Shown one piece after another: positions 22,369 to 48,984 of a DNA stretch of 64,000 bases. The number at the start of each line of letters is the position of its first letter. The first letter of the stretch is position 1. A model generated the notes under the pieces. It had not been told where the DNA came from. It did not search any database and worked only from the letters and a program-made list of their open reading frames with translations. The position numbers and the translations under genes were made by a program. The stretch covers positions 62,001 to 126,000 of the forward strand of contig CAJQSQ010000006.1 of NCBI GenBank assembly GCA_905616395.1, written 5' to 3'. This DNA comes from an uncultured Candidatus Pelagibacter sp. (GTDB taxonomy: Bacteria > Pseudomonadota > Alphaproteobacteria > Pelagibacterales > Pelagibacteraceae).

Positions 22369-23682
22369 ATGATGAAAATAATTCTAAGAAGTTTAATCCT
22401 GTGTTTGATTTTAAGTGGAGAGGCATTTGCTGGTCTAAAAGAAATAGGACAAGGAGAGGTGCCTGCTGATATTAAAAATCAAATAATAAATCAATTTGAT
22501 GAAAATATAAAAAAAAAGAAAAATAAAAACAAAAAACTTATTCTTTATTTTTATACAGATGGTGGGAGCAACAATTCTGTATGGGAATCTACATTTGCTG
22601 ATGAAATAACAGATAAGCTACATGAAAAAATATTTAAAAAATGTACTAAACAAATTAGAAAATATAAAATTAGCAAAACAGCAGAATGCTCTTTATATGC
22701 TACCGACAACCAAGTTGTTTGGAATTTTTCTGCTGAGACAAATGATAAAGAAATATCTGACAAAATTGCACTTTACTCAAAACCTTTTATTCAACCTAAA
22801 GATAAAAAACCAGGAAGATTTTTTGAAGATCAGCCTGATATAACTGATGATTATCAAATTCATTTTAATTATTTGCTAGCTAGTGACAGTAAGGATAGTG
22901 AATGGGATATTAGTGGAAAAATGGAAGATATCTTGCTTGAAATGAATGAGATCATGAAGAGAGAAACTGCTAAACACAGATTATCCAATGGAGTTGGTAA
23001 AAAATTTAAATTTGATTATAGAAAAGATGGTAAACTTGATATTACATTCGTACGTGTACCCAAAAAAAGTAAAGATTTTACAGCTGCCTCCCCAAATAAT
23101 AATATAGTGCCATATTTTTGGTTACAGGGACTGAATAATCCAAAAAAGGTTTATTTTAACTTTGCTGACATACCTGGTAATAAAGGTGATGGTGAAGCTG
23201 GACCTGGAGTTGGATCTTCTTTTGTAGGTGTGTCATCTCAGAAACCAAGATTAATACAATTAACAATTCATGAACTATATCATACACAAGGACAGGGCTT
23301 TGAGTGTGTCCCGGGAGTAAAGAATGGTCACTATACAAATATGGACAGACCTAATCATTTAGCTGCTGGATTAAAGGCTGGTCCAGCATATATGCATGAA
23401 GAGAAAGGATGTCCCCAAACTGCTGATAGTGTCTATTTAACACCAACATCCAAAAACTCATATGATCCATATAAAGTTATGTGTTTAAAAGAGCATGGAA
23501 ATTTTAATCATCCTAAAATTTTAAAAGCTATAAAAAAGTTTAATAAAAAACTTGCAGAAGGAGCCCCTCCTCATGAACTAGGAGGTATTGGTCCAGTCTG
23601 TAAATGGACTATGGCCAGTAGAGACAGAAGTTCTTTTCCAACAAAATCAGGTGCAGTTTCAGATTTTGAAAGGTTAAAATAA
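22369..23682 (+). CDS. Secreted HExxH metalloprotein, unknown family
   Basis: This 437-residue exported protein has a signal peptide ending GEAFA. It carries HELYH at residues 301-305 (TIHELYHTQGQGFECVPG), a zinc-binding HExxH motif that suggests a metallopeptidase. Position 11 after the first His is Phe rather than the His of metzincins, so the third ligand must be elsewhere, perhaps in the following HYTNMD or NHL segment. The first 100 residues are Lys-rich. A decayed relative lies at 45308 next to the beta-barrel cluster. It is the only gene between the two att-like repeats, which points to acquisition by transfer. The initiating ATG pair at 22369/22372 lacks a clear ribosome-binding site. 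Confidence 0.75.
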   Translation: MMKIILRSLILCLILSGEAFAGLKEIGQGEVPADIKNQIINQFDENIKKKKNKNKKLILYFYTDGGSNNSVWESTFADEITDKLHEKIFKKCTKQIRKYKISKTAECSLYATDNQVVWNFSAETNDKEISDKIALYSKPFIQPKDKKPGRFFEDQPDITDDYQIHFNYLLASDSKDSEWDISGKMEDILLEMNEIMKRETAKHRLSNGVGKKFKFDYRKDGKLDITFVRVPKKSKDFTAASPNNNIVPYFWLQGLNNPKKVYFNFADIPGNKGDGEAGPGVGSSFVGVSSQKPRLIQLTIHELYHTQGQGFECVPGVKNGHYTNMDRPNHLAAGLKAGPAYMHEEKGCPQTADSVYLTPTSKNSYDPYKVMCLKEHGNFNHPKILKAIKKFNKKLAEGAPPHELGGIGPVCKWTMASRDRSSFPTKSGAVSDFERLK

Positions 23683-37186: not shown

Positions 37187-37298
37187 AACCCAAAACAGGC
37201 TTTTGTTTAATAGACATTTAATCTTAAATAGATAATTAACCTATATTGGGTTTTTAATTTCTAGATATTGTAAAGTTTTTACTTAAAATGATACTTTA

Positions 37299-38147
37299 AT
37301 GAAAAAAATTTTTGTACTGATTCTTACTTTCTTTATCTTTAACGCATCAAATGCTGATATTTTAAAAATTAAAGATAATTTTTTTAGCTCAATAGAGAGT
37401 TTTTTAGATGGTAACTTTGATGACACTGATTTCTCAATCAAGTCAACAGAGGGCCTAAAACCACAAATTGGAATTTTAACTTTTAAACCATTAAACGATA
37501 CTGATGATGGTTTAACTTTTTTCCAAGGATCTTTTTTTACTCATGATGGAGACAGAGAAACTTTAAACTTAGGTTTTGGAAAAAGAATACTAAGCAATGA
37601 TGAAAGTTTTTTGTTTGGTTTAAATGGATTTTATGATCATGAGTTAGATTATGATCATCAAAGAGCAAGTATAGGTGGTGAAATAAAGTCTTCAATACTT
37701 GAATTAAGCACCAATCATTATTTTGGAATATCTGGAGAGCAAACAGGAAAAAACAATATTAAAGAAGAAGTTGCAGATGGGTATGATTTAGAATTTGGAG
37801 CACATGTTCCATATATTCCAACTGCAAAAATGTACGCTAAAATATTTGAATATGATATTCCAGGTGGATTAGATTTTGAAGGAATAGAATATTCTTCAAA
37901 TATTGGGATACCAAACTCTGGAATGAATTTTGAAGTTGGTTATAAAGATTATGGGAATAATGGTCATGATGACCAGTGGTTCTTTAACTTAACTTTTAGT
38001 TTAAATAAAATGAACCCTAATACTAGCTTTGTATCTGACAAAGCCTTTGAAAGAGTTTCAATGAAAGATAAAAAATACGAAAAAGTTAGAAGAGAAAACT
38101 TAATTGTTAAATCAAAAGCTTTCTCTGTTAAAGCAGGAGGATTTTAA
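37299..38147 (+). CDS. Free-standing inverse-autotransporter-like beta-barrel, copy 1
   Basis: This outer-membrane protein of 282 residues has a signal peptide (LTFFIFNASNA). The barrel resembles the translocator of intimin/invasin: alternating strands such as FFQGSFFTHDGDRETLNLGFGKR and FLFGLNGFYDHELDYDHQRASIGGE, then LELSTNHYFGIS, as in NAFYDHDL and LKLSANGYLGLS of intimins. After the barrel, EKVRRENLIV corresponds to the VxRNNNIVLEY linker, and the chain ends there without passenger domains. The partner gene starts at the next base after a good AGGAGG site. Two paralogs follow at 41922 and 43664. I infer a pore or anchor for the partner. Confidence 0.75.
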   Translation: MKKIFVLILTFFIFNASNADILKIKDNFFSSIESFLDGNFDDTDFSIKSTEGLKPQIGILTFKPLNDTDDGLTFFQGSFFTHDGDRETLNLGFGKRILSNDESFLFGLNGFYDHELDYDHQRASIGGEIKSSILELSTNHYFGISGEQTGKNNIKEEVADGYDLEFGAHVPYIPTAKMYAKIFEYDIPGGLDFEGIEYSSNIGIPNSGMNFEVGYKDYGNNGHDDQWFFNLTFSLNKMNPNTSFVSDKAFERVSMKDKKYEKVRRENLIVKSKAFSVKAGGF

Positions 38148-39005
38148 ATGAAACATATTAAATATTTATTTCTAGTATTATGTACAATTTTTGTATTTGA
38201 GATGATTAGTTTTAATAAAGCTGAGGCCGGCGCATGTACAGTTACTTCTGGAGTTGTTGCAGAAGATGATATTGATAATTCATGTGATACAGTGCCCGAT
38301 ATTTATGAAGTAGTAATTTATAAATTATATTTATGTACAAGTGCTCCAACAGAAGCAACTACATCATCGACAGTTGTTTTAACTCCATGTTCACAAATCT
38401 TTAATAATGATAGTGGAGCAACTGCTTCTGTAACCCAAGGTTCGGATATTACTCTAGATGGTGCATACACAAGACCTCCAAATGGTACCTATACTCATGG
38501 ATATGCTTACATGGACAATACTTTTGGTATAACTTGGTCAGGTAAAATTGAGGCATCAATGACAGGAATGACTGGAGGTACTGGAGTTTTTTGTGCGACT
38601 GTAGCTGGCTCAGGAACACACGCACAAGGTAGTACTCATAATAATAGTTCTATTTGTAGCTCTACAGACAATCTTACAGCAGGAAAATTTGTTGAAACTA
38701 TGAAACAATTTGGTGGATCGAGCGATAACTTTTTATCAAAAGGAGAAGCAACCAATATCAACGGAACTACAGCGAGTATTGTTGGATTATTAGTTGATAC
38801 CAACGGGCATAGAGCTGCAAGCACAGGAGAAGTTGTTAAGCTCGAAGGTTTAGTTACGTTCGCAAATCCAGTCGTTGTTACTACAAAAACTACCTCTCTA
38901 AGTATGAATTTTAATGTAGGCGAGGGAATGCATCTTAATGATGGTGGTAGTAATAAATTACAGGTTGGAAGTGGACCTTTTCAAGCTATCATGACAGCAA
39001 ATTAA
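38148..39005 (+). CDS. Secreted Cys-containing partner of barrel 1, unknown
   Basis: I know no family for this 285-residue exported protein. The signal peptide is MKHIKYLFLVLCTIFVFEMISFNKAEA. The mature part is rich in Thr, Ser, Gly and Ala with short beta-like stretches, and has several Cys, for example YKLYLC and LTPCSQIF. The Y-x-V-V-I-Y-K-L-x-L-C segment aligns with YKLTIYKIELC and LKITVTKIELC of the partners at 42802 and 44540. It begins immediately after the barrel 1 stop, with AGGAGG inside the barrel's last codons, so the two are made together. A surface-exposed passenger or adhesin-like protein is my inference. Confidence 0.6.
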   Translation: MKHIKYLFLVLCTIFVFEMISFNKAEAGACTVTSGVVAEDDIDNSCDTVPDIYEVVIYKLYLCTSAPTEATTSSTVVLTPCSQIFNNDSGATASVTQGSDITLDGAYTRPPNGTYTHGYAYMDNTFGITWSGKIEASMTGMTGGTGVFCATVAGSGTHAQGSTHNNSSICSSTDNLTAGKFVETMKQFGGSSDNFLSKGEATNINGTTASIVGLLVDTNGHRAASTGEVVKLEGLVTFANPVVVTTKTTSLSMNFNVGEGMHLNDGGSNKLQVGSGPFQAIMTAN

Positions 39006-39078
39006 AATTGGTTTAAATTAAGATTAAATTTTTTTAAATAAATCAATACGAAATCATATAAACTTTACTTATAATTCT

Positions 39079-40221
39079 ATGAAAAAAATAATCTTAATAT
39101 TAATATCCATTCTTTTCACATCAAATGTTTATGCACATTCTACTAAGGGTGTAACTCCTAACTTTGATTATAAGCAAAATTGCACAAAAAAAAATTCAGT
39201 ATTAAATTATATTTCAAAACACAAGCTGTATCGTGGAGACAAAGGTGAAATAATTAAATTTAATTCATATACAGCTTTTGATGTACAAAATGTAATGAGT
39301 GGAGCTTATAAAAAAAACCCAATAGAAATAACAGGCTTACTTACTTTACCTAAGGGTGATGCCAAGGTTCCAATTGTAATTATTACTCATAGTAGTGGTG
39401 GACCAGTAATGTATGTCTGGAACGACTTTAATTACCATGCATATAGAAATCTTTTAGATGCAGGAATTGGTGTAATGTTTATTGATAATTTTTGCCAACG
39501 AGGAGCAAGAGAAACATACAGAGATCAATCTAGAGTACCAGCTATAAGTGGTGCAATTGATGCCATGATGGCTTTAGAGTTATTGAAATCTCACCCTAGA
39601 TCAAATGGAAAATTTGGAACTAATGGTCACTCAAGAGGTGGAACAAACTCTCTTTATTTAGGAGAGGTTAAATTCACATCAAATTTTGTTGAAGGAACAA
39701 AAGGTTTTGATGCAATTCTTGGTGAAGCAGCCGAATGTAGATTGGCAGGTTTATTTTTAGAACCAGAGTTAACATCTAATACAAAATTACTTTATGTTCA
39801 TGGTGAATTAGACAATTATACCCTAGCAAAAGATTGCGAAGCACATGTAAAAAGAATTAAAGCAAAACCAGGACAAGTAAAAATTGATATTAAAGAGGGG
39901 TGGTATCACGATTGGCATGCTGGCTTTAAACCAAAAAAAGTTAGAGCACAGAACCTGAATAAGTGTCCAGAAATATTTGTTGATAATAATGGCTTTGTTG
40001 TAGGTCCAATGATTGATCTTGTTTTAAATAAATACAAAATTTTTCCATCTATGGAAGCTGCCAGAAAAGCTTCTGAAGATGAACCAGTCAAAACATTCAA
40101 AAAAATGTTTAAAATATTTAAACAAGAAAAATGCATTAAAAGAGGTGTGATGATAGGTGGTAAACATATCGATGAATATATGCCTCAATTTATGAACTTC
40201 TTTAAAGAAAACCTGCTTTAA
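39079..40221 (+). CDS. Secreted alpha/beta hydrolase, copy 1
   Basis: This is a periplasmic or extracellular serine hydrolase of the dienelactone-hydrolase type. The signal peptide is MKKIILILISILFTSNVYA. The nucleophile elbow is GHSRGG with Ser185, the acid is probably the Asp in VHGELDNYTLAKDC, and the base is a His in GWYHDWHAG. HSSGGP early on may form the oxyanion hole. The 380 residues include a Cys-rich C-terminus. A close paralog follows 18 nt later. Substrate is unknown. Its position between two barrel/partner pairs suggests it belongs to the same surface system. Confidence 0.85.
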   Translation: MKKIILILISILFTSNVYAHSTKGVTPNFDYKQNCTKKNSVLNYISKHKLYRGDKGEIIKFNSYTAFDVQNVMSGAYKKNPIEITGLLTLPKGDAKVPIVIITHSSGGPVMYVWNDFNYHAYRNLLDAGIGVMFIDNFCQRGARETYRDQSRVPAISGAIDAMMALELLKSHPRSNGKFGTNGHSRGGTNSLYLGEVKFTSNFVEGTKGFDAILGEAAECRLAGLFLEPELTSNTKLLYVHGELDNYTLAKDCEAHVKRIKAKPGQVKIDIKEGWYHDWHAGFKPKKVRAQNLNKCPEIFVDNNGFVVGPMIDLVLNKYKIFPSMEAARKASEDEPVKTFKKMFKIFKQEKCIKRGVMIGGKHIDEYMPQFMNFFKENLL

Positions 40222-40239
40222 ATCCTGGTTAAATACTAA

Positions 40240-41379
40240 ATGAAAAAAATAATTTTAATATTTATAACAGTTTTATTTACATCTAATGTTTTTGGACATG
40301 ACTCTCAAAGTGGCACAAAAATGGACACTAGCAAAGAATGTACAAAAAAAAAATCAATGTTGAATTTCCTCTCAAAAAATAAAAATTGGAAAAATAGAGG
40401 TAAATTAATAAAATTTAATTCTTATACAGGTTTTGATGTCAGAACTGTAATTAATGGAGCATATAAAAAACATCCAATCGAGATAACAGGTTTTTTATCT
40501 CTACCAGAAGGATCTAGTAAAGTTCCAATCGTGATCTGGACACATAGTAGTGGTGGACCTGGAATGTATATTTGGAATGACTGGACTTATCATGGTTATA
40601 GAAATTTATTGGATGAGGGCATAGGTGTAATGTTTATAGATAATTTTTGTTCACGAGGTGCAAGGGAAACTTGGAGAGACCAATCAAGAGTTCCTGCTAT
40701 CAATGGTGCAATAGATGCTATGATGGCACTAAAAGTATTAAAATCTCATCCAAGATCTAATGGAAAATTTGGAACCACAGGACACTCAAGGGGTGGTTTA
40801 AACTCTCTTTATTTAAGTGAGGTAAAATTTACTTCTTTGTTTTTAGATGGAACAACAGGCTTTGACGCAATATTGCCTGAAGCAGCAGAATGTAAAATGG
40901 CTGGTTTATTCATTGAACCAGAATTGACAACTAACACTAAATTACTTTATGTTCATGGTGGAGCCGATGATTATACTTTGGCCAAGCATTGTGAAGAACA
41001 TGTTAAAAGAATTAAAGCTGAACCAGGTCAAATAGAAATTGATATTAAAGATGGATGGTTTCATGAATGGCACTCAGGTTCAAAACCAAAAAAAATTAAG
41101 ATGGCAATGATTTTTCATAAATGTCCATCTATATATGTCGACAATGAAGGTAATACTATCGGCCCAATGACAGACTTAATAATAAATAAATACAAGATTT
41201 TTCCATCTATGGAAGCAGCTATGAAAGCTACAGAAGAAGAGCCGAGAAAAACATTTAAAAAAATGTTTAAAGTTTTAAAAAAAGAAAAATGCCTTGAAAG
41301 AGGAGTTACAATTGGTGGTAAACATATGGATGAATATATGCCTCAATTTATGAACTTCTTTAAAGAAAACCTACTTTAA
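40240..41379 (+). CDS. Secreted alpha/beta hydrolase, copy 2
   Basis: This is a tandem paralog of the preceding hydrolase, of nearly equal length (379 aa), with the same signal peptide type (MKKIILIFITVLFTSNVFG) and the same catalytic segments GHSRGG, VHGGADDYTLAKHC and GWFHEWHSG. The C-termini (HMDEYMPQFMNFFKENLL) are almost identical to copy 1. The two differ mainly in the N-terminal region and around substrate-side loops (GFLSLPEG, WTYHGYRN). A recent duplication followed by divergence is likely. It is followed within 4 nt by the GTG-started regulator. Confidence 0.85.
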   Translation: MKKIILIFITVLFTSNVFGHDSQSGTKMDTSKECTKKKSMLNFLSKNKNWKNRGKLIKFNSYTGFDVRTVINGAYKKHPIEITGFLSLPEGSSKVPIVIWTHSSGGPGMYIWNDWTYHGYRNLLDEGIGVMFIDNFCSRGARETWRDQSRVPAINGAIDAMMALKVLKSHPRSNGKFGTTGHSRGGLNSLYLSEVKFTSLFLDGTTGFDAILPEAAECKMAGLFIEPELTTNTKLLYVHGGADDYTLAKHCEEHVKRIKAEPGQIEIDIKDGWFHEWHSGSKPKKIKMAMIFHKCPSIYVDNEGNTIGPMTDLIINKYKIFPSMEAAMKATEEEPRKTFKKMFKVLKKEKCLERGVTIGGKHMDEYMPQFMNFFKENLL

Positions 41380-41382
41380 GTC

Positions 41383-41835
41383 GTGGTTAAAAATGTAAAT
41401 AGTGAGTTAATTTATTCAGCAATAAATCTTCACATTAACCATTTTTTAAATGTAAAAAAACTTGCGAAACATGATTATGAAAGTCACATGATTTTGTTAA
41501 CAGTATATTCACATTTTCTTTTTCAAACAATTGTCAAGGGCAAATCATTTAGTTGGAAAGAAGTTTTTGAAAAAACGGAGACCGAAGAACACAAGACATT
41601 AATGAAAGATAGAAAATTGACAATTTTTTCAGTCGCAGAAAACCTATTGATGCCTCAAGAAACAGTAAGAAGAAAGTTAGAAAAATTATGTAATAGAAAA
41701 TTATTAGATTATTCTAAATCAGATGGGTTAAGTTTAGGTAAAAAGTTTAAAGAAACAATCGAACCACTAGGCAAGGTTGATGGACAAGAGATTTTTGCTT
41801 TGCTTGAAAAATTTGAAAAAGCCAAAAAGCAGTAG
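41383..41835 (+). CDS. Winged-helix-like regulator
   Basis: This 150-residue cytoplasmic protein begins with GTG 4 nt after hydrolase 2. The segment LTIFSVAENLLMPQETVRRKLEKLCNRKLLDYSKSDGLSLG reads as a helix-turn-helix and wing of the CRP/MarR kind: a helix, a turn, a recognition helix PQETVRRKLEKL, and a beta wing. The N-terminal half is helical and could dimerise. It is the only regulator in the beta-barrel island and may control the barrel and hydrolase genes. The DNA-binding assignment is by pattern only. Confidence 0.65.
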   Translation: MVKNVNSELIYSAINLHINHFLNVKKLAKHDYESHMILLTVYSHFLFQTIVKGKSFSWKEVFEKTETEEHKTLMKDRKLTIFSVAENLLMPQETVRRKLEKLCNRKLLDYSKSDGLSLGKKFKETIEPLGKVDGQEIFALLEKFEKAKKQ

Positions 41836-41860
41836 ACAAAATATTTAGTTTTGTCATTTA

Positions 41861-41882
41861 AAACCTATTTAGGGTTTTTTAT
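41861..41882 (+). terminator. Terminator-like hairpin before barrel 2
   Basis: AAAACCT-ATTT-AGGGTTTTTTATT forms a short stem (one bulged G) with a T-run, after the regulator gene and about 40 nt before barrel 2. Similar AACCTATATTGGGTTTTT near 37240 and AACCCATTTTAGGTT near 43603 precede the other two barrels. Confidence 0.55.
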
Positions 41883-41921
41883 TCCTTTTAAATATAATTT
41901 TTTACGGTAAAAGATACTGTA

Positions 41922-42015
41922 ATGAAAAAAATTTTAGTACTGATTCTTACTTTCTTTATATCTACTGCAGTTAATGCTGATGTCACTTCTCAAGCATTAA
42001 ATAAAGTATCTGAAA
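41922..42015 (+). repeat. 5' block shared with barrel 3 (copy A)
   Basis: The first 94 nt of barrel 2 match the first 94 nt of barrel 3 (43664-43757) with one difference (GTA versus ATA at codon 6). After that point the two genes diverge strongly. The block covers the signal peptide and the first mature residues. Confidence 0.9.
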
Positions 42016-42797
42016 AACTATCCTCTACTATAGGAAATTTAATCCCAGGAGACGGTCTTACAGAAGCATCTATTCAGATAAACGAAGACGATAATCCCGA
42101 CATAGAAATTCTTGCTGTAAGAGATTTAGTGGCTAATGAATATTCAAATATGTTTACTCAATTCAGTTTACACACTCAGGAAATAAATGGTCATGATAGA
42201 TTTATTGGTAATCTTGGTTTTGGATATAGAAAATTGTCAGATGATAAATCAAACGTATATGGAATTAACTTATTTTTAGATAATGATTTTGAGGCTGATC
42301 ATCAAAGAGGTAGTGTTGGTTTAGAACTAAAAGGTGCTTATTTAGATCTTTCAGCTAATAGCTATCACGCCATAACAAATACAAAAATTTATAAAAATAC
42401 TGATGAAGAGGTTTTATCAGGACATACAATCGATTTAGCCTCTCAAATACCCTATGCTCCATGGGCTAATTTAAATTTACAAAGTTACGCTTGGGAAAAT
42501 GTTAAAGCCTCTACTGACACGAAGGGTTATACTTTAGGTCTTGAAGCTTATCTAACACCTTCTTTAGCATTAGAGTTAAAAAATGATTATAATGATAATG
42601 CTGCAGTTGATGATGAGTTTACTTATAAATTAACTTTTGTTTATCCACCAAGAAATGACGGTAAGTCAATGAAAGATGGCTTATCAAATTTAGCTTTTGA
42701 AAAACAAAATATGGAAGCAAAATTAAAAGATAAAGTTCAAAGAGATAATAACATTGTAGTAGAAATTCAAGGATCAGTAATCATAACCCAAAAATAA
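41922..42797 (+). CDS. Free-standing inverse-autotransporter-like beta-barrel, copy 2
   Basis: This outer-membrane barrel has 291 residues, with signal peptide LTFFISTAVNA. Barrel strands are visible in MFTQFSLHTQEINGHDRFIGNLGFGYRKL, YGINLFLDNDFEADHQRGSVGLELKG and LDLSANSYHAI, again like intimin/invasin translocators. It ends with AKLKDKVQRDNNIVVEIQGSVIITQK, where VQRDNNIVVEIQ corresponds closely to the VxRNNNIVLEY sequence that follows the barrel in inverse autotransporters. There is no passenger. Its partner starts 4 nt later. A -10 like TATAAT lies about 24 nt upstream of the ATG. Confidence 0.78.
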   Translation: MKKILVLILTFFISTAVNADVTSQALNKVSEKLSSTIGNLIPGDGLTEASIQINEDDNPDIEILAVRDLVANEYSNMFTQFSLHTQEINGHDRFIGNLGFGYRKLSDDKSNVYGINLFLDNDFEADHQRGSVGLELKGAYLDLSANSYHAITNTKIYKNTDEEVLSGHTIDLASQIPYAPWANLNLQSYAWENVKASTDTKGYTLGLEAYLTPSLALELKNDYNDNAAVDDEFTYKLTFVYPPRNDGKSMKDGLSNLAFEKQNMEAKLKDKVQRDNNIVVEIQGSVIITQK

Positions 42798-42801
42798 TAA
42801 T

Positions 42802-43545
42802 ATGAAAAAACTCTTATATACATTTTTAATAACTTTATTATTTAATAACTATGCTTATTCAGCTAGTGGAGATGCAACTGAGTACAAACTTACAATTTAT
42901 AAAATTGAATTATGTGAAACAGGTAGCACACTTGCTAATTGTTTAAATCCAATAACATTGTTCGAAGGTGATTCAGGAATAATTGATATTGCAAATACTG
43001 CATCAGGTGCTCAAGCAGCTGCGTTAGGAAACCCTGGTCAAGCTATATTAGGAAAAACTTATACCGTTACACAAGTTACAATGGATAGAGCAATCACAGT
43101 TAAAGGTTATTATGCGGAAGGAAATAATAGCTGTTCAACAGTAGCAGTTAATAACTCTTCAAAAGTTTTAAATGGATTAGGTGATCATGCAACAGGTGGA
43201 ACACCAGATACTCCAGTAACTGGAATTTATTATGCAGGAGAAGCACTTGCACCTGATCTTGGTGTTGATGATGCTTGGAATGCTGTCGCAACAGATGGTA
43301 CAGTTGATACAGTTGATGACCGGAACGCAGCAGGCTATCAAAGACTTCAGTGGAGAAACACTTTAACAAATTCTGTTACAATCATGTTAGGTAAAACCCC
43401 TACAATTAAAATTGCTTTTGATCCTACTAATACAATAGGATTTGCTGGAACTATTGCAACAGCCGAACATTGTACAGCTGATGCGAACGCTAACAGAGGG
43501 CTTTTTATTAAAAATCCTGAAGTTTCAATCACTATTACTAACTAA
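42802..43545 (+). CDS. Secreted Cys-containing partner of barrel 2, unknown
   Basis: This exported protein of 247 residues has the signal peptide MKKLLYTFLITLLFNNYAYS. The mature part starts ASGDATEYKLTIYKIELCETGSTLANCLNPITL, sharing the KIELCETGST and CLNPIT motifs with the partner of barrel 3. Four Cys (two in that block, NSCS, EHCT) are conserved between those two. MDRAITVKG matches MSRAITVKG of the other. It ends in a beta-like EVSITITN. No known family. I infer a beta-sandwich passenger, secreted and perhaps held by the barrel. Confidence 0.62.
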   Translation: MKKLLYTFLITLLFNNYAYSASGDATEYKLTIYKIELCETGSTLANCLNPITLFEGDSGIIDIANTASGAQAAALGNPGQAILGKTYTVTQVTMDRAITVKGYYAEGNNSCSTVAVNNSSKVLNGLGDHATGGTPDTPVTGIYYAGEALAPDLGVDDAWNAVATDGTVDTVDDRNAAGYQRLQWRNTLTNSVTIMLGKTPTIKIAFDPTNTIGFAGTIATAEHCTADANANRGLFIKNPEVSITITN

Positions 43546-43663
43546 TTAGTAAATCTGGTTGAATTACTAGTCTTAAAATAAATATTCTCAATTAATACTT
43601 AAAAACCCATTTTAGGTTAATTACTTCTTTTAAATACAATTTATTGCGGTAAATAAGAGTGTA

Positions 43664-43757
43664 ATGAAAAAAATTTTAATACTGATTCTTACTTTCTTTA
43701 TATCTACTGCAGTTAATGCTGATGTCACTTCTCAAGCATTAAATAAAGTATCTGAAA
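43664..43757 (+). repeat. 5' block shared with barrel 2 (copy B)
   Basis: This is the second copy of the 94-nt near-identical block at the start of barrel genes 2 and 3. Upstream, TTTAAATACAATTTATTGCGGTAAATAAGAGTGTAATG also resembles TTTAAATATAATTTTTTACGGTAAAAGATACTGTAATG of copy A, so the similarity extends into the promoter region. Confidence 0.85.
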
Positions 43758-44533
43758 CAATATCAAACTTGATACCTGGAGAAGGAATTACTGAAGTGTC
43801 TTTAGATTATAATGATGGTGACGAGGATCAGCTTAACTTTTCAATATTAGGGGTAAGAGATATTGAAGCAACAGATAATTCTAATTTCTTTACTCAATTT
43901 AGCTTAATGAACCAAGAGATAAATAGCTCTGGAAGAATTATTGGAAACATAGGACTAGGTTACAGAAAATTATCTGATGATAAAAATTTTATGTTTGGAG
44001 CAAACACTTTCTACGATAGAGATTTAACAGATGGACAATCAAGATTGGGCTTAGGTATTGAAGCTAAAGGTTCAATTTTAGATTTAACTGCAAATAGTTA
44101 TACAAAAATTTCAAATTCTAAAGTTGTTAATGGAGATAGAGAACAAGTATTATCAGGTTGGGATTATAATTTAACATCTCAAATTCCACGAACTCCTTGG
44201 GCTAGAATTAATTATAATGGTTATAAATGGGAAGCTGAAAAAGGATCTTCTGACTTAAAAGGTAATATTTATTCTTTAGAATTAGATGTAACAAACTCGA
44301 TTGAAGTTGTTGCTAGCTTGGACAATTCTTCATTAGCTGGAATTGATGATGAAACTTCTTTAAGAATTAATTATATTTATCCACCAAAAGAAAAATCTAT
44401 GGTGATGTCTGATGGCTTATCAAACGACATGTTTGAAAAAAGAAATATGGAACATGAATTGAAGAAAAAAGTTAGAAGAAGAAACAAACTAGTTATGGAA
44501 ATTCAAGGATCAATTATAATGACGAGTAAATAA
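43664..44533 (+). CDS. Free-standing inverse-autotransporter-like beta-barrel, copy 3
   Basis: This is a 289-residue outer-membrane barrel with the same signal peptide as copy 2. Strand motifs are FFTQFSLMNQEINSSGRIIGNIGLGYRKL, FMFGANTFYDRDLTDGQSRLGLGIEAKG and LDLTANSYTKI. FYDRDL and GLGIEAKG are close to the FYDHDL and LGGEY motifs of intimin-type barrels. It ends in KKVRRRNKLVMEIQGSIIMTSK, matching the linker and end of copy 2. The partner gene starts 6 nt later. Body sequence differs markedly from copy 2 although the first 31 codons are nearly identical. Confidence 0.78.
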   Translation: MKKILILILTFFISTAVNADVTSQALNKVSETISNLIPGEGITEVSLDYNDGDEDQLNFSILGVRDIEATDNSNFFTQFSLMNQEINSSGRIIGNIGLGYRKLSDDKNFMFGANTFYDRDLTDGQSRLGLGIEAKGSILDLTANSYTKISNSKVVNGDREQVLSGWDYNLTSQIPRTPWARINYNGYKWEAEKGSSDLKGNIYSLELDVTNSIEVVASLDNSSLAGIDDETSLRINYIYPPKEKSMVMSDGLSNDMFEKRNMEHELKKKVRRRNKLVMEIQGSIIMTSK

Positions 44534-44539
44534 TATATT

Positions 44540-45268
44540 ATGAAAAAAATATTTAAAAATCTATTAATGTTAACTTTTGCATATTTTGCTTGTACTTCAA
44601 TTGCAAACTCTACAAAAGCTTCAGGTGCAGCAACAGTACTCAAAATAACAGTTACAAAAATTGAATTATGCGAAACAGGAAGTACGGACACAACTTGTTT
44701 AAATCCTATTACTGTAAGTAATCCTGGATTAAGCACCAATGTTGACCTAGCATCAATAACAGCGGGATCAGTAGCAGCAACTATGGGAAACTTTGGTAGA
44801 GCTAAAGCTGGTACAGCTTATACGTATATACAAGCTGTAATGAGTAGAGCAATTACAGTCAAAGGTAGTGCGACTGCAGATAACCTAACATGTCATACTA
44901 AAGGTGATGGTAATTCTAATGGTCAAACATTTGGAATAGCAGAAACTAATGCAGCTGATTCAACTGAAGCTACATTATATGTTCCCCAATTTACTGATCC
45001 AACGAATTTTCCTAGAATTAATTCTGTAGGTGACAGAGAGGGTAATAACCCTAGAATAGCAGGAACAGTTAATGGAGCTGATACCCATTTTATATCTAGA
45101 GATCCTTTGACTAAACCTTTCATTCTTGACCCCTCTGCAATTCCAACTGTTACAATGGCTTTTGGAACATCCACAGCCGTAACTGTAAGTAATGGTGAAA
45201 GTTGTGATGGAGCTGCGAGAATGTACGCTACTCCACCTGATGTTACAATTACCATTCAAGGTCAGTAA
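44540..45268 (+). CDS. Secreted Cys-containing partner of barrel 3, unknown
   Basis: This 242-residue exported protein is paralogous to the partner of barrel 2. The signal peptide region is MKKIFKNLLMLTFAYFACTSIANS. The shared block is TVTKIELCETGSTDTTCLNPITV; other matches are MSRAITVKGSA and the end DVTITIQGQ. Four Cys are conserved with the partner of barrel 2. Between the shared ends the middle differs in length and sequence, as expected for exposed loops. It follows barrel 3 by 6 nt. Function is unknown; surface-exposed passenger is inferred from its location. Confidence 0.62.
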   Translation: MKKIFKNLLMLTFAYFACTSIANSTKASGAATVLKITVTKIELCETGSTDTTCLNPITVSNPGLSTNVDLASITAGSVAATMGNFGRAKAGTAYTYIQAVMSRAITVKGSATADNLTCHTKGDGNSNGQTFGIAETNAADSTEATLYVPQFTDPTNFPRINSVGDREGNNPRIAGTVNGADTHFISRDPLTKPFILDPSAIPTVTMAFGTSTAVTVSNGESCDGAARMYATPPDVTITIQGQ

Positions 45269-48360: not shown

Positions 48361-48984
48361 ATGGCTAGAGTTACAGTAGAAGATTGCATAGATAAAGTTG
48401 ATAGTCCTTACGAATTAGTGCTTGTTGCTAAAGAAAGAGCTGTTCAATTAAATTCAGGTTTAGAACCTACTCTTGATAGAGATAATGATAAAAACACAGT
48501 TATATCTCTAAGAGAAATTGCAGAAGAGACTATTAAAGTCTCAGATTTGACTGATAGTGCTATTCACAAACTTAGAAAACATGTTGAACAAGTTGATGAT
48601 GGTACTGATGATGATGAAGTTATCGGTGACGATTTTGACAGTATGTACAAAGGTGAAATTTCAAAAAGTGGAACACCTATTTTACCATCTAAAAGAGCTA
48701 GAAAAATTCCAGAAAAAATTCAAGTAGCACCAGAAGATTTAGAAGAATTAACTGTAAAAGCAGAACCTGAAGTGGATGTTAACCCAGAGTTAGAAACTGC
48801 TTCAGAAGAAACAGAAACTGCTTCAGAAGAAACAGAAACTGCTTCAGAAGAAACAGAAACTGCTTCAGAAGAAACAGAAACTGCTTCAGAAGAAACAGAA
48901 ACTGCTTCAGAAGAAACAGAAACTGCTTCAGAAGAAACAGAAACTGCTGAAGATAGTTCAGAAAAAACTGAACCTAACAGTTAA
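48361..48984 (+). CDS. rpoZ: RNA polymerase omega subunit with long acidic repeat tail
   Basis: Omega stabilises the beta-prime subunit of RNA polymerase. Residues 1 to about 65 are the omega domain ([33 protein letters not shown], then [14 protein letters not shown]). The family normally ends near 90-130 residues, whereas this protein has 207. From about residue 75 the tail is very acidic, and residues 145-196 consist of seven perfect ETASEET heptads plus a partial unit. The tail lacks predicted folding and may be surface-exposed on the polymerase. It overlaps the convergent CaiB gene by 4 nt. Confidence 0.93.
48793..48948 (+). repeat. 21-nt perfect tandem repeat inside rpoZ
   Basis: Seven identical copies of GAAACTGCTTCAGAAGAAACA (48793-48939) are followed by a partial unit GAAACTGCT. 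Each copy encodes ETASEET. As the unit length is a multiple of three, gain or loss of copies keeps the reading frame. Confidence 0.97.

Follow-up and report, generated by a model that had tools for sequence, protein, structure and literature searches.

Passenger-less intimin-type barrels of Pelagibacterales and an adjoining family of variable secreted proteins: candidates for a two-partner form of inverse autotransport

What does an intimin-type outer-membrane barrel serve when its own chain ends where a passenger would begin? This question is raised by a stretch of 64,000 nucleotides from an uncultured Candidatus Pelagibacter sp. (assembly GCA_905616395.1, contig CAJQSQ010000006.1, positions 62,001 to 126,000; hereafter the window, whose numbering is used throughout), in which each of three genes for secreted proteins, partners 1 to 3, lies directly downstream of one gene for a barrel of Pfam family PF11924. 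A first-pass annotation, made from the letters alone, had proposed the three partners as a new secreted protein family. Here we report that members of this family almost always form a two-gene unit with an intimin-type barrel that has no passenger. We think it somewhat probable that the three partners are non-covalent passengers of the three passenger-less inverse autotransporters, so that the pairs would represent type Ve secretion or display split between two partners. The broader proposal, that SAR11 and other Alphaproteobacteria use bare intimin-type barrels to export and hold separately encoded, disulfide-bonded passengers of this new family as variable, exchangeable surface proteins of these highly abundant marine bacteria, with five pairs in this genome, is one we take seriously while judging it a little less likely to be right than wrong. 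The features concerned are the following.

37299..38147, plus strand: barrel 1, passenger-less inverse autotransporter beta-domain, 282 amino acids, with signal peptide; PF11924 E 3.4e-36, profile matched to its final position (279/279)
38106..38144, plus strand: C-terminal tail of barrel 1, surface-strand region and final residues ...KSKAFSVKAGGF, after the linker VRRENLIV; layout as in the other barrels
38148..39005, plus strand: partner 1, secreted, 285 amino acids, 6 mature cysteines; its start ATG abuts the stop codon of barrel 1 (TAAATG)
41922..42797, plus strand: barrel 2, passenger-less inverse autotransporter beta-domain, 291 amino acids; PF11924 E 2.4e-35; PDB 4e1s (intimin) E 9.5e-09
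42756..42794, plus strand: C-terminal tail of barrel 2, VVEIQGSVIITQK; aligns with the crystallised invasin and intimin barrels up to their final residues and runs on for about 8 more
42802..43545, plus strand: partner 2, secreted, 247 amino acids, 4 mature cysteines
42913..42915, plus strand: Cys38 of partner 2, within KIELCETGST; invariant in 51 homologues
42940..42942, plus strand: Cys47 of partner 2, within CLNPIT; invariant in 51 homologues
43132..43134, plus strand: Cys111 of partner 2; nearly invariant, at least 90% in 51 homologues
43471..43473, plus strand: Cys224 of partner 2; invariant in the A-type subfamily (26-sequence alignment A9)
43664..44533, plus strand: barrel 3, passenger-less inverse autotransporter beta-domain, 289 amino acids; PF11924 E 4e-33
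44492..44530, plus strand: C-terminal tail of barrel 3 (VMEIQGSIIMTSK region); the model places a short strand at residues 278-280 and gives the remainder low confidence
44540..45268, plus strand: partner 3, secreted, 242 amino acids, 4 mature cysteines

The three barrels score 115-126 bits against PF11924, whose cut-off is 22.3, and no other barrel family exceeds its own cut-off, so that there is no Omp85-type match. Their closest solved relatives are invasin and intimin, with which they align by profile through the pore linker (VxRxNxIVxE) to the end of the crystal constructs; the chains then end 10-16 residues past the linker motif and hold no C-terminal passenger. Structures were modelled from alignments of 12 and 17 sequences taken from the window and related loci. 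For pair 3, barrel and partner were read through the stop codon purely as a modelling device, and the resulting model contains 12 barrel strands as well as a helical turn and the short strand at residues 278-280, with invasin 4e1t (E 1.5e-10) and intimin 4e1s (E 3.2e-09) as best PDB matches (target TM-scores 0.74 and 0.70). By PF11924 and the 12-strand fold, the barrels belong to the inverse autotransporter (type Ve) family and lack a passenger. In intimin, the linker ends in a small beta-strand at the outer face that is required for passenger secretion (PMC13078405). Because the SAR11 barrels keep both the linker and the surface strand, their C-terminus would lie at the cell surface, at the usual start of the passenger, if their topology is that of intimin.

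The partners form one family. All three open reading frames lie where the first-pass annotation had placed them, and the motifs KIELCETGST, CLNPIT and RAITVKG that it had read in partners 2 and 3 fall within a full-length alignment of the two (32% identity, E 3e-27). Partner 1, for which a related block had been noticed, matches the others in pairwise BLAST only over this YKxxLC block (E 0.004); when its subfamily is compared with the rest of the family by profile, 189 columns align at E 2.6e-11, and on this sequence comparison partner 1 is a more distant member of the same family. Every partner begins with a hydrophobic segment resembling a signal peptide, and none has a significant match in Pfam, NCBIfam, PHROGs or PDB, in keeping with the claim of a new secreted family. 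More specifically, PF14321 (DUF4382) gave no match at E 0.1 among 51 members, no Pfam match to a Big Ig-like or C-type-lectin-like domain was obtained and no PDB fold matched at E 0.001 (with a low-confidence model), and the N-termini have no significant Pfam or NCBIfam match to the haemagglutination domain of two-partner secretion (TPS). Homologues occur well beyond the locus, in 86 of 197 genomes of the order and in 8 of 289 of the class.

The proposed conserved cysteine pair is borne out by Cys38 and Cys47 of partner 2, whose invariance in the 51 homologues is well beyond chance; Tyr87 is nearly invariant in the same alignment. The four cysteines ascribed to partners 2 and 3 hold for the mature proteins, the full-length partner 3 having five and partner 1 seven, one of them in each case inside the signal peptide. 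With the signal segment removed by a simple heuristic cleavage rule, the number of mature cysteines is even in 60 of 60 non-identical partners (4 in 15, 6 in 28, 8 in 16 and 10 in 1). Cysteines are thus gained and lost in pairs between subfamilies, which is strong indirect evidence, drawn from sequence, that the partners are disulfide-bonded and hence extracytoplasmic; DsbB is encoded in the same genome. Partners range from 228 to 373 amino acids, and inspection of their N-termini by eye indicates that they are not lipoproteins. An AlphaFold2 model (12 sequences) has an all-beta core with an unresolved middle; mean predicted local distance difference test (pLDDT) is 58 and predicted template modelling score (pTM) 0.58, and local confidence in the core is fair to good (averages over 10 residues: 85-88 near residues 31-60, 86 for 81-90, 81 for 181-190). 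Compared with PDB folds it gave nothing below E 0.001, and it is too weak for a conclusion from that comparison. The variable centre described at first is supported. The surface-exposed fold proposed with it fared less evenly: the predicted core is all-beta, in a poor model, and the surface location is one that we infer.

The strongest evidence comes from the association of the two genes across genomes. The 1.13-Mb genome of the window encodes five PF11924 barrels, three in the window and two elsewhere (contig C2, locus L006), and the latter two are also followed by partner-type genes. Among the named public loci, close homologues are found in SAR11 (Pelagibacteraceae / Candidatus Pelagibacter) and in one record labelled no further than Alphaproteobacteria, and by these relatives the window would belong to Pelagibacterales. 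Of 61 genomes, namely that of the window and 60 relatives, 35 have the barrel. In a set of 62 barrels built from regions of these 35 genomes and the public loci, one barrel had too little downstream sequence, and each of the other 61 is followed on the same strand by a gene for a secreted protein, mostly at a distance of -1 to +6 nucleotides. We then ran two independent searches over 197 Pelagibacterales genomes, one by the partner alignment and one by PF11924, counting a partner hit no more than 1 kb downstream as a pairing. By this measure 111 of 113 barrels are paired, and 83 of the 84 barrel-bearing genomes have a partner (Fisher p ~8e-51, with genomes taken as independent and relatedness ignored). 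One of the two remaining barrels (genome G044) reaches a contig end; the other (G424) is part of a protein that extends past the barrel hit, and a partner gene still lies directly downstream of it. Conversely, five partner hits have no barrel hit, three of them at a contig start, one a fragment and one the second of two tandem partners in G424.

A scan of 289 Alphaproteobacteria spread over the class, 32 of which have PF11924, separates barrels by whether they carry a passenger. In 23 of the 32 genomes the barrel lies within a long protein (about 520 to more than 12,000 amino acids), and the partner occurs in none of these 23, one of which has an additional barrel gene cut by a contig end. Short barrels occur in 9 of the 289 genomes, and in 8 of the 9, the window's genome included, a partner lies directly downstream (Fisher p 8.6e-7 against the 0/23 passenger-bearing genomes, again with genomes taken as independent). 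The partner is found in 8 of the 289 genomes, always beside a passenger-less barrel, although in G185 a frame change interrupts the barrel hit. In a single case, G160 (L153:3716-4561, minus strand), a short barrel ends at the linker (IILGRP) and lacks both the tail of 10-16 residues and a partner. A phylum sample of 399 genomes yielded no partner besides that of the window's own genome. None was found in IMG/VR or in the phage and plasmid collections, which makes a phage or plasmid gene unlikely.

The genes flanking the pair differ between sites, often with an opposite-strand gene immediately downstream, and only barrel and partner are constant, which defines them as a two-gene unit; a promoter and terminator scan returned sites no more numerous than in shuffled sequences. 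Pairwise distances among barrels and among partners are correlated (Mantel r 0.86; highest value among 2000 permutations 0.20), as follows from joint inheritance of the two genes. The partners are the more variable of the two, with mean identities of 0.26 for partners and 0.35 for barrels. At one locus (L065:1854-3579, plus strand) the barrel is cut short by a frame change, with the remaining coding sequence after the stop, and the partner hits fall in two pieces; this is probably a decaying pair, intact relatives of which exist.

A two-partner type Ve system would bring these observations together as follows. To judge from the sequences, the short two-gene unit would make barrel and partner, each of which would enter the periplasm through Sec by its own signal peptide. 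By homology with intimin, the beta-barrel assembly machinery (BAM) would insert the barrel, with the alpha-helical turn and linker spanning the pore and the short tail at the surface; the genome encodes one Omp85 (BamA-type) protein, its only Omp85-family hit. Disulfides of the partner would form in the periplasm, as the even cysteine counts suggest. The partner might then cross the outer membrane through its cognate barrel or the barrel-BAM assembly, or along with either, and the same barrel might hold it at the surface, probably by its C-terminal tail. By analogy, the fast-varying middle of the partner would serve as an adhesin or variable surface protein. A surface location fits the arrangement in G424 (L157:2141-3673, minus strand), where the segment joined to the barrel contains two Big_12 Ig-like stretches and two partner genes follow in tandem: the partner is thus kept even where the barrel bears an outward stalk.

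Several points weigh against this reading. The arrangement in G424 can also be read as showing that the partner has no need of a free barrel tail, and no barrel-partner fusion, the most direct form of link there could be, was found in the genomes examined. The read-through model of pair 3 (pTM 0.46, with a low-confidence tail) neither supports nor excludes a docking. Physical linkage correlates all features of both genes, so that their co-variation is in itself no proof of contact. Finally, the linker already occupies the pore, and the passage of a second chain is not accounted for.

This last point is the starting place of the principal rival, in which the partner never leaves the periplasm and there assists the barrel, for instance as a plug, gate or assembly factor or by tethering it to the cell wall, and the surface feature is then the bare barrel. 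The pore is already filled, no export step is necessary, and both the pairing with passenger-less barrels and the partner's own signal peptide are expected equally well. However, the partner varies more than the barrel, where a housekeeping assembly factor would usually vary less, cysteine-stabilised beta proteins of such variable length look exposed, and the passenger-bearing inverse autotransporters do without a partner. We consider a periplasmic partner unlikely, though with an appreciable chance of being correct.

A partner that reaches the surface by another route and cooperates with the barrel there, for instance as a surface protein expressed alongside it, or with the barrel as a receptor and the partner as its ligand or shield, is less probable still. 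The observations point to no particular route across the outer membrane, and the two-gene unit has no other constant neighbour. No other secretion gene accompanies the pair, and the single Omp85-family hit and the partner N-termini, which are not those of lipoproteins, speak against other means of crossing. We give yet smaller odds to a small diffusion or uptake channel that has lost autotransport and is accompanied by a soluble substrate-binding or ligand-capturing protein. SAR11 bacteria lead a nutrient-limited life, and a secreted beta protein does adjoin the barrel, but the elements that block the lumen in intimin, linker and surface strand, are conserved in these barrels, and the highly variable centres of the partners are unlike a site for a fixed nutrient. 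An ancestral single autotransporter gene that was split by a stop codon and is still made as a fusion by read-through was rejected: frames match in several pairs (gaps of 0, 3 or 6 nucleotides), yet gaps are often out of frame (3 nucleotides in 14 pairs, 1 in 12, 0 in 9, -1 in 7, 2 in 7 and 4 in 4), three different stop codons are in use, so that neither gap frame nor stop codon is conserved, and each of the partners has a signal-peptide-like N-terminus of its own.

A remote relative of the partners was also sought. We had taken their core to be DUF4382-like, for which HMMER gives no support. Profile-profile comparison of partners with 29 domains of DUF4382 (PF14321) aligns about 70 columns with scores of 23.7 and 22.2; the highest scores among 60 column-shuffled controls were 14.9 and 14.1, and the reversed controls (18) also lay lower (P 0.007-0.013; hhalign probability 3-6%), and the alignment falls on the strands expected beforehand; a smaller comparison with six DUF4382 domains was not significant. 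DUF4382 is likewise a secreted or lipoprotein beta domain, but its usual first strand with the LTDAP motif is absent from the partners, which have conserved cysteines. We regard this weak profile similarity as a lead to possible remote homology and not as a classification. A donor-strand arrangement, in which the barrel tail would supply the missing first strand of a DUF4382-like partner, was rejected on sequence: the profile score is 23.5 with the tail and 23.6 without it, and 105 of 150 shuffled tails do equally well or better.

The window also bears on how the pairs multiply. Pairs 2 and 3 share 166 nucleotides at 89% identity around the barrel starts, and 86 nucleotides are common to all three pairs, which suggests recent duplication or gene conversion of the barrel 5' ends. 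In the related SAR11 locus L008 the surrounding genes are the same, yet there is a single pair and a single hydrolase. From the shared start DNA and the single pair of L008, the window's three pairs appear to be a variable array that expanded locally. The stretch from 38148 to 45268 holds, besides the partners, two of the three barrels, two hydrolase-like genes and a small, possibly DNA-binding gene. The remaining features are listed here.

37273-37358, 41857-42022 and 43599-43764: near-identical DNA, upstream region and barrel gene start; 89% between pairs 2 and 3, 78-84% to pair 1
39079-41379, plus strand: two tandem paralogous secreted hydrolase-like proteins with DNA stretches 77-80% identical; the second weakly matches Peptidase_S9, and L008 has one copy in this position
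41383-41835, plus strand: small protein with a possible helix-turn-helix; its relative in L159 weakly matches HTH_Crp_2
L006:6356-9515 (minus strand), L008:6735-9025 (plus strand) and L159:4207-5160 (plus strand): loci of the KPGRFFEDQPDV family
22369-23682, plus strand: relative of the KPGRFFEDQPDV family in the window, far from the pairs
48361-48984, plus strand: open reading frame of 207 amino acids with C-terminal repeated SEETETA units, perhaps a length-variable repeat

Homologues of the small protein at 41383-41835 also lie directly upstream of the barrel in L008 and L159, and it may regulate some of the pairs. The KPGRFFEDQPDV family, a secreted family that combines this motif with metalloprotease-like HExxH-type motifs, occurs between or beside barrel pairs in several SAR11 loci; the single member tested had no match in Pfam.

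How the pairs compare with known systems depends on which of the two genes is considered. The barrel is that of the inverse autotransporters (type Ve; intimin, invasin, YeeJ, YchO/SinH; PF11924, TC 1.B.54), with the same 12 strands, pore linker and surface beta-strand (PMC13078405), but there the passenger is part of the chain, whereas here the gene immediately downstream specifies a distinct secreted protein from another family. Two-partner secretion (type Vb, TpsA/TpsB) is similar in having two genes, for an outer-membrane barrel and for an exported partner with its own signal peptide, export being in our case a hypothesis; its barrel, however, is of the Omp85 type with POTRA domains, while the Pelagibacterales pairs have an intimin-type barrel and a short partner with no known TPS domain. 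Barrel-only members of the intimin/invasin family from Alphaproteobacteria, Cyanobacteria and Chlorobi, short barrels of the same kind as those described here, were reported by Tsai et al. (2010), who called their function unknown and suggested that they may act as transporters or as anchors of non-covalent passengers (PMC3008723). Their multi-gene examples, Yfr4 of Yersinia frederiksenii and Ahy1 of Aeromonas, are followed by genes that encode the usual passenger-type repeats, and beyond a few operons they found no informative gene context for the other short proteins (PMC3008723). In the Pelagibacterales partners, unlike those of Yfr4 and Ahy1, no Ig-like passenger repeats were detected. In the literature collection searched, no paper joins the term 'inverse autotransporter' with Pelagibacter. 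What is new is a specific, previously undescribed partner family almost always beside the Pelagibacterales barrels, and it is a natural candidate for the missing passenger of the barrel-only proteins as proposed by Tsai et al.

With a partner gene at 111 of 113 barrels in one bacterial order, the question of what bare barrels do becomes directly testable. If the partner is indeed exported and held by its barrel, type V secretion would gain a two-chain version built on an intimin-type pore, and SAR11 would gain a family of variable surface proteins, on a cell surface that is poorly known and that matters for phage attack, grazing and attachment.

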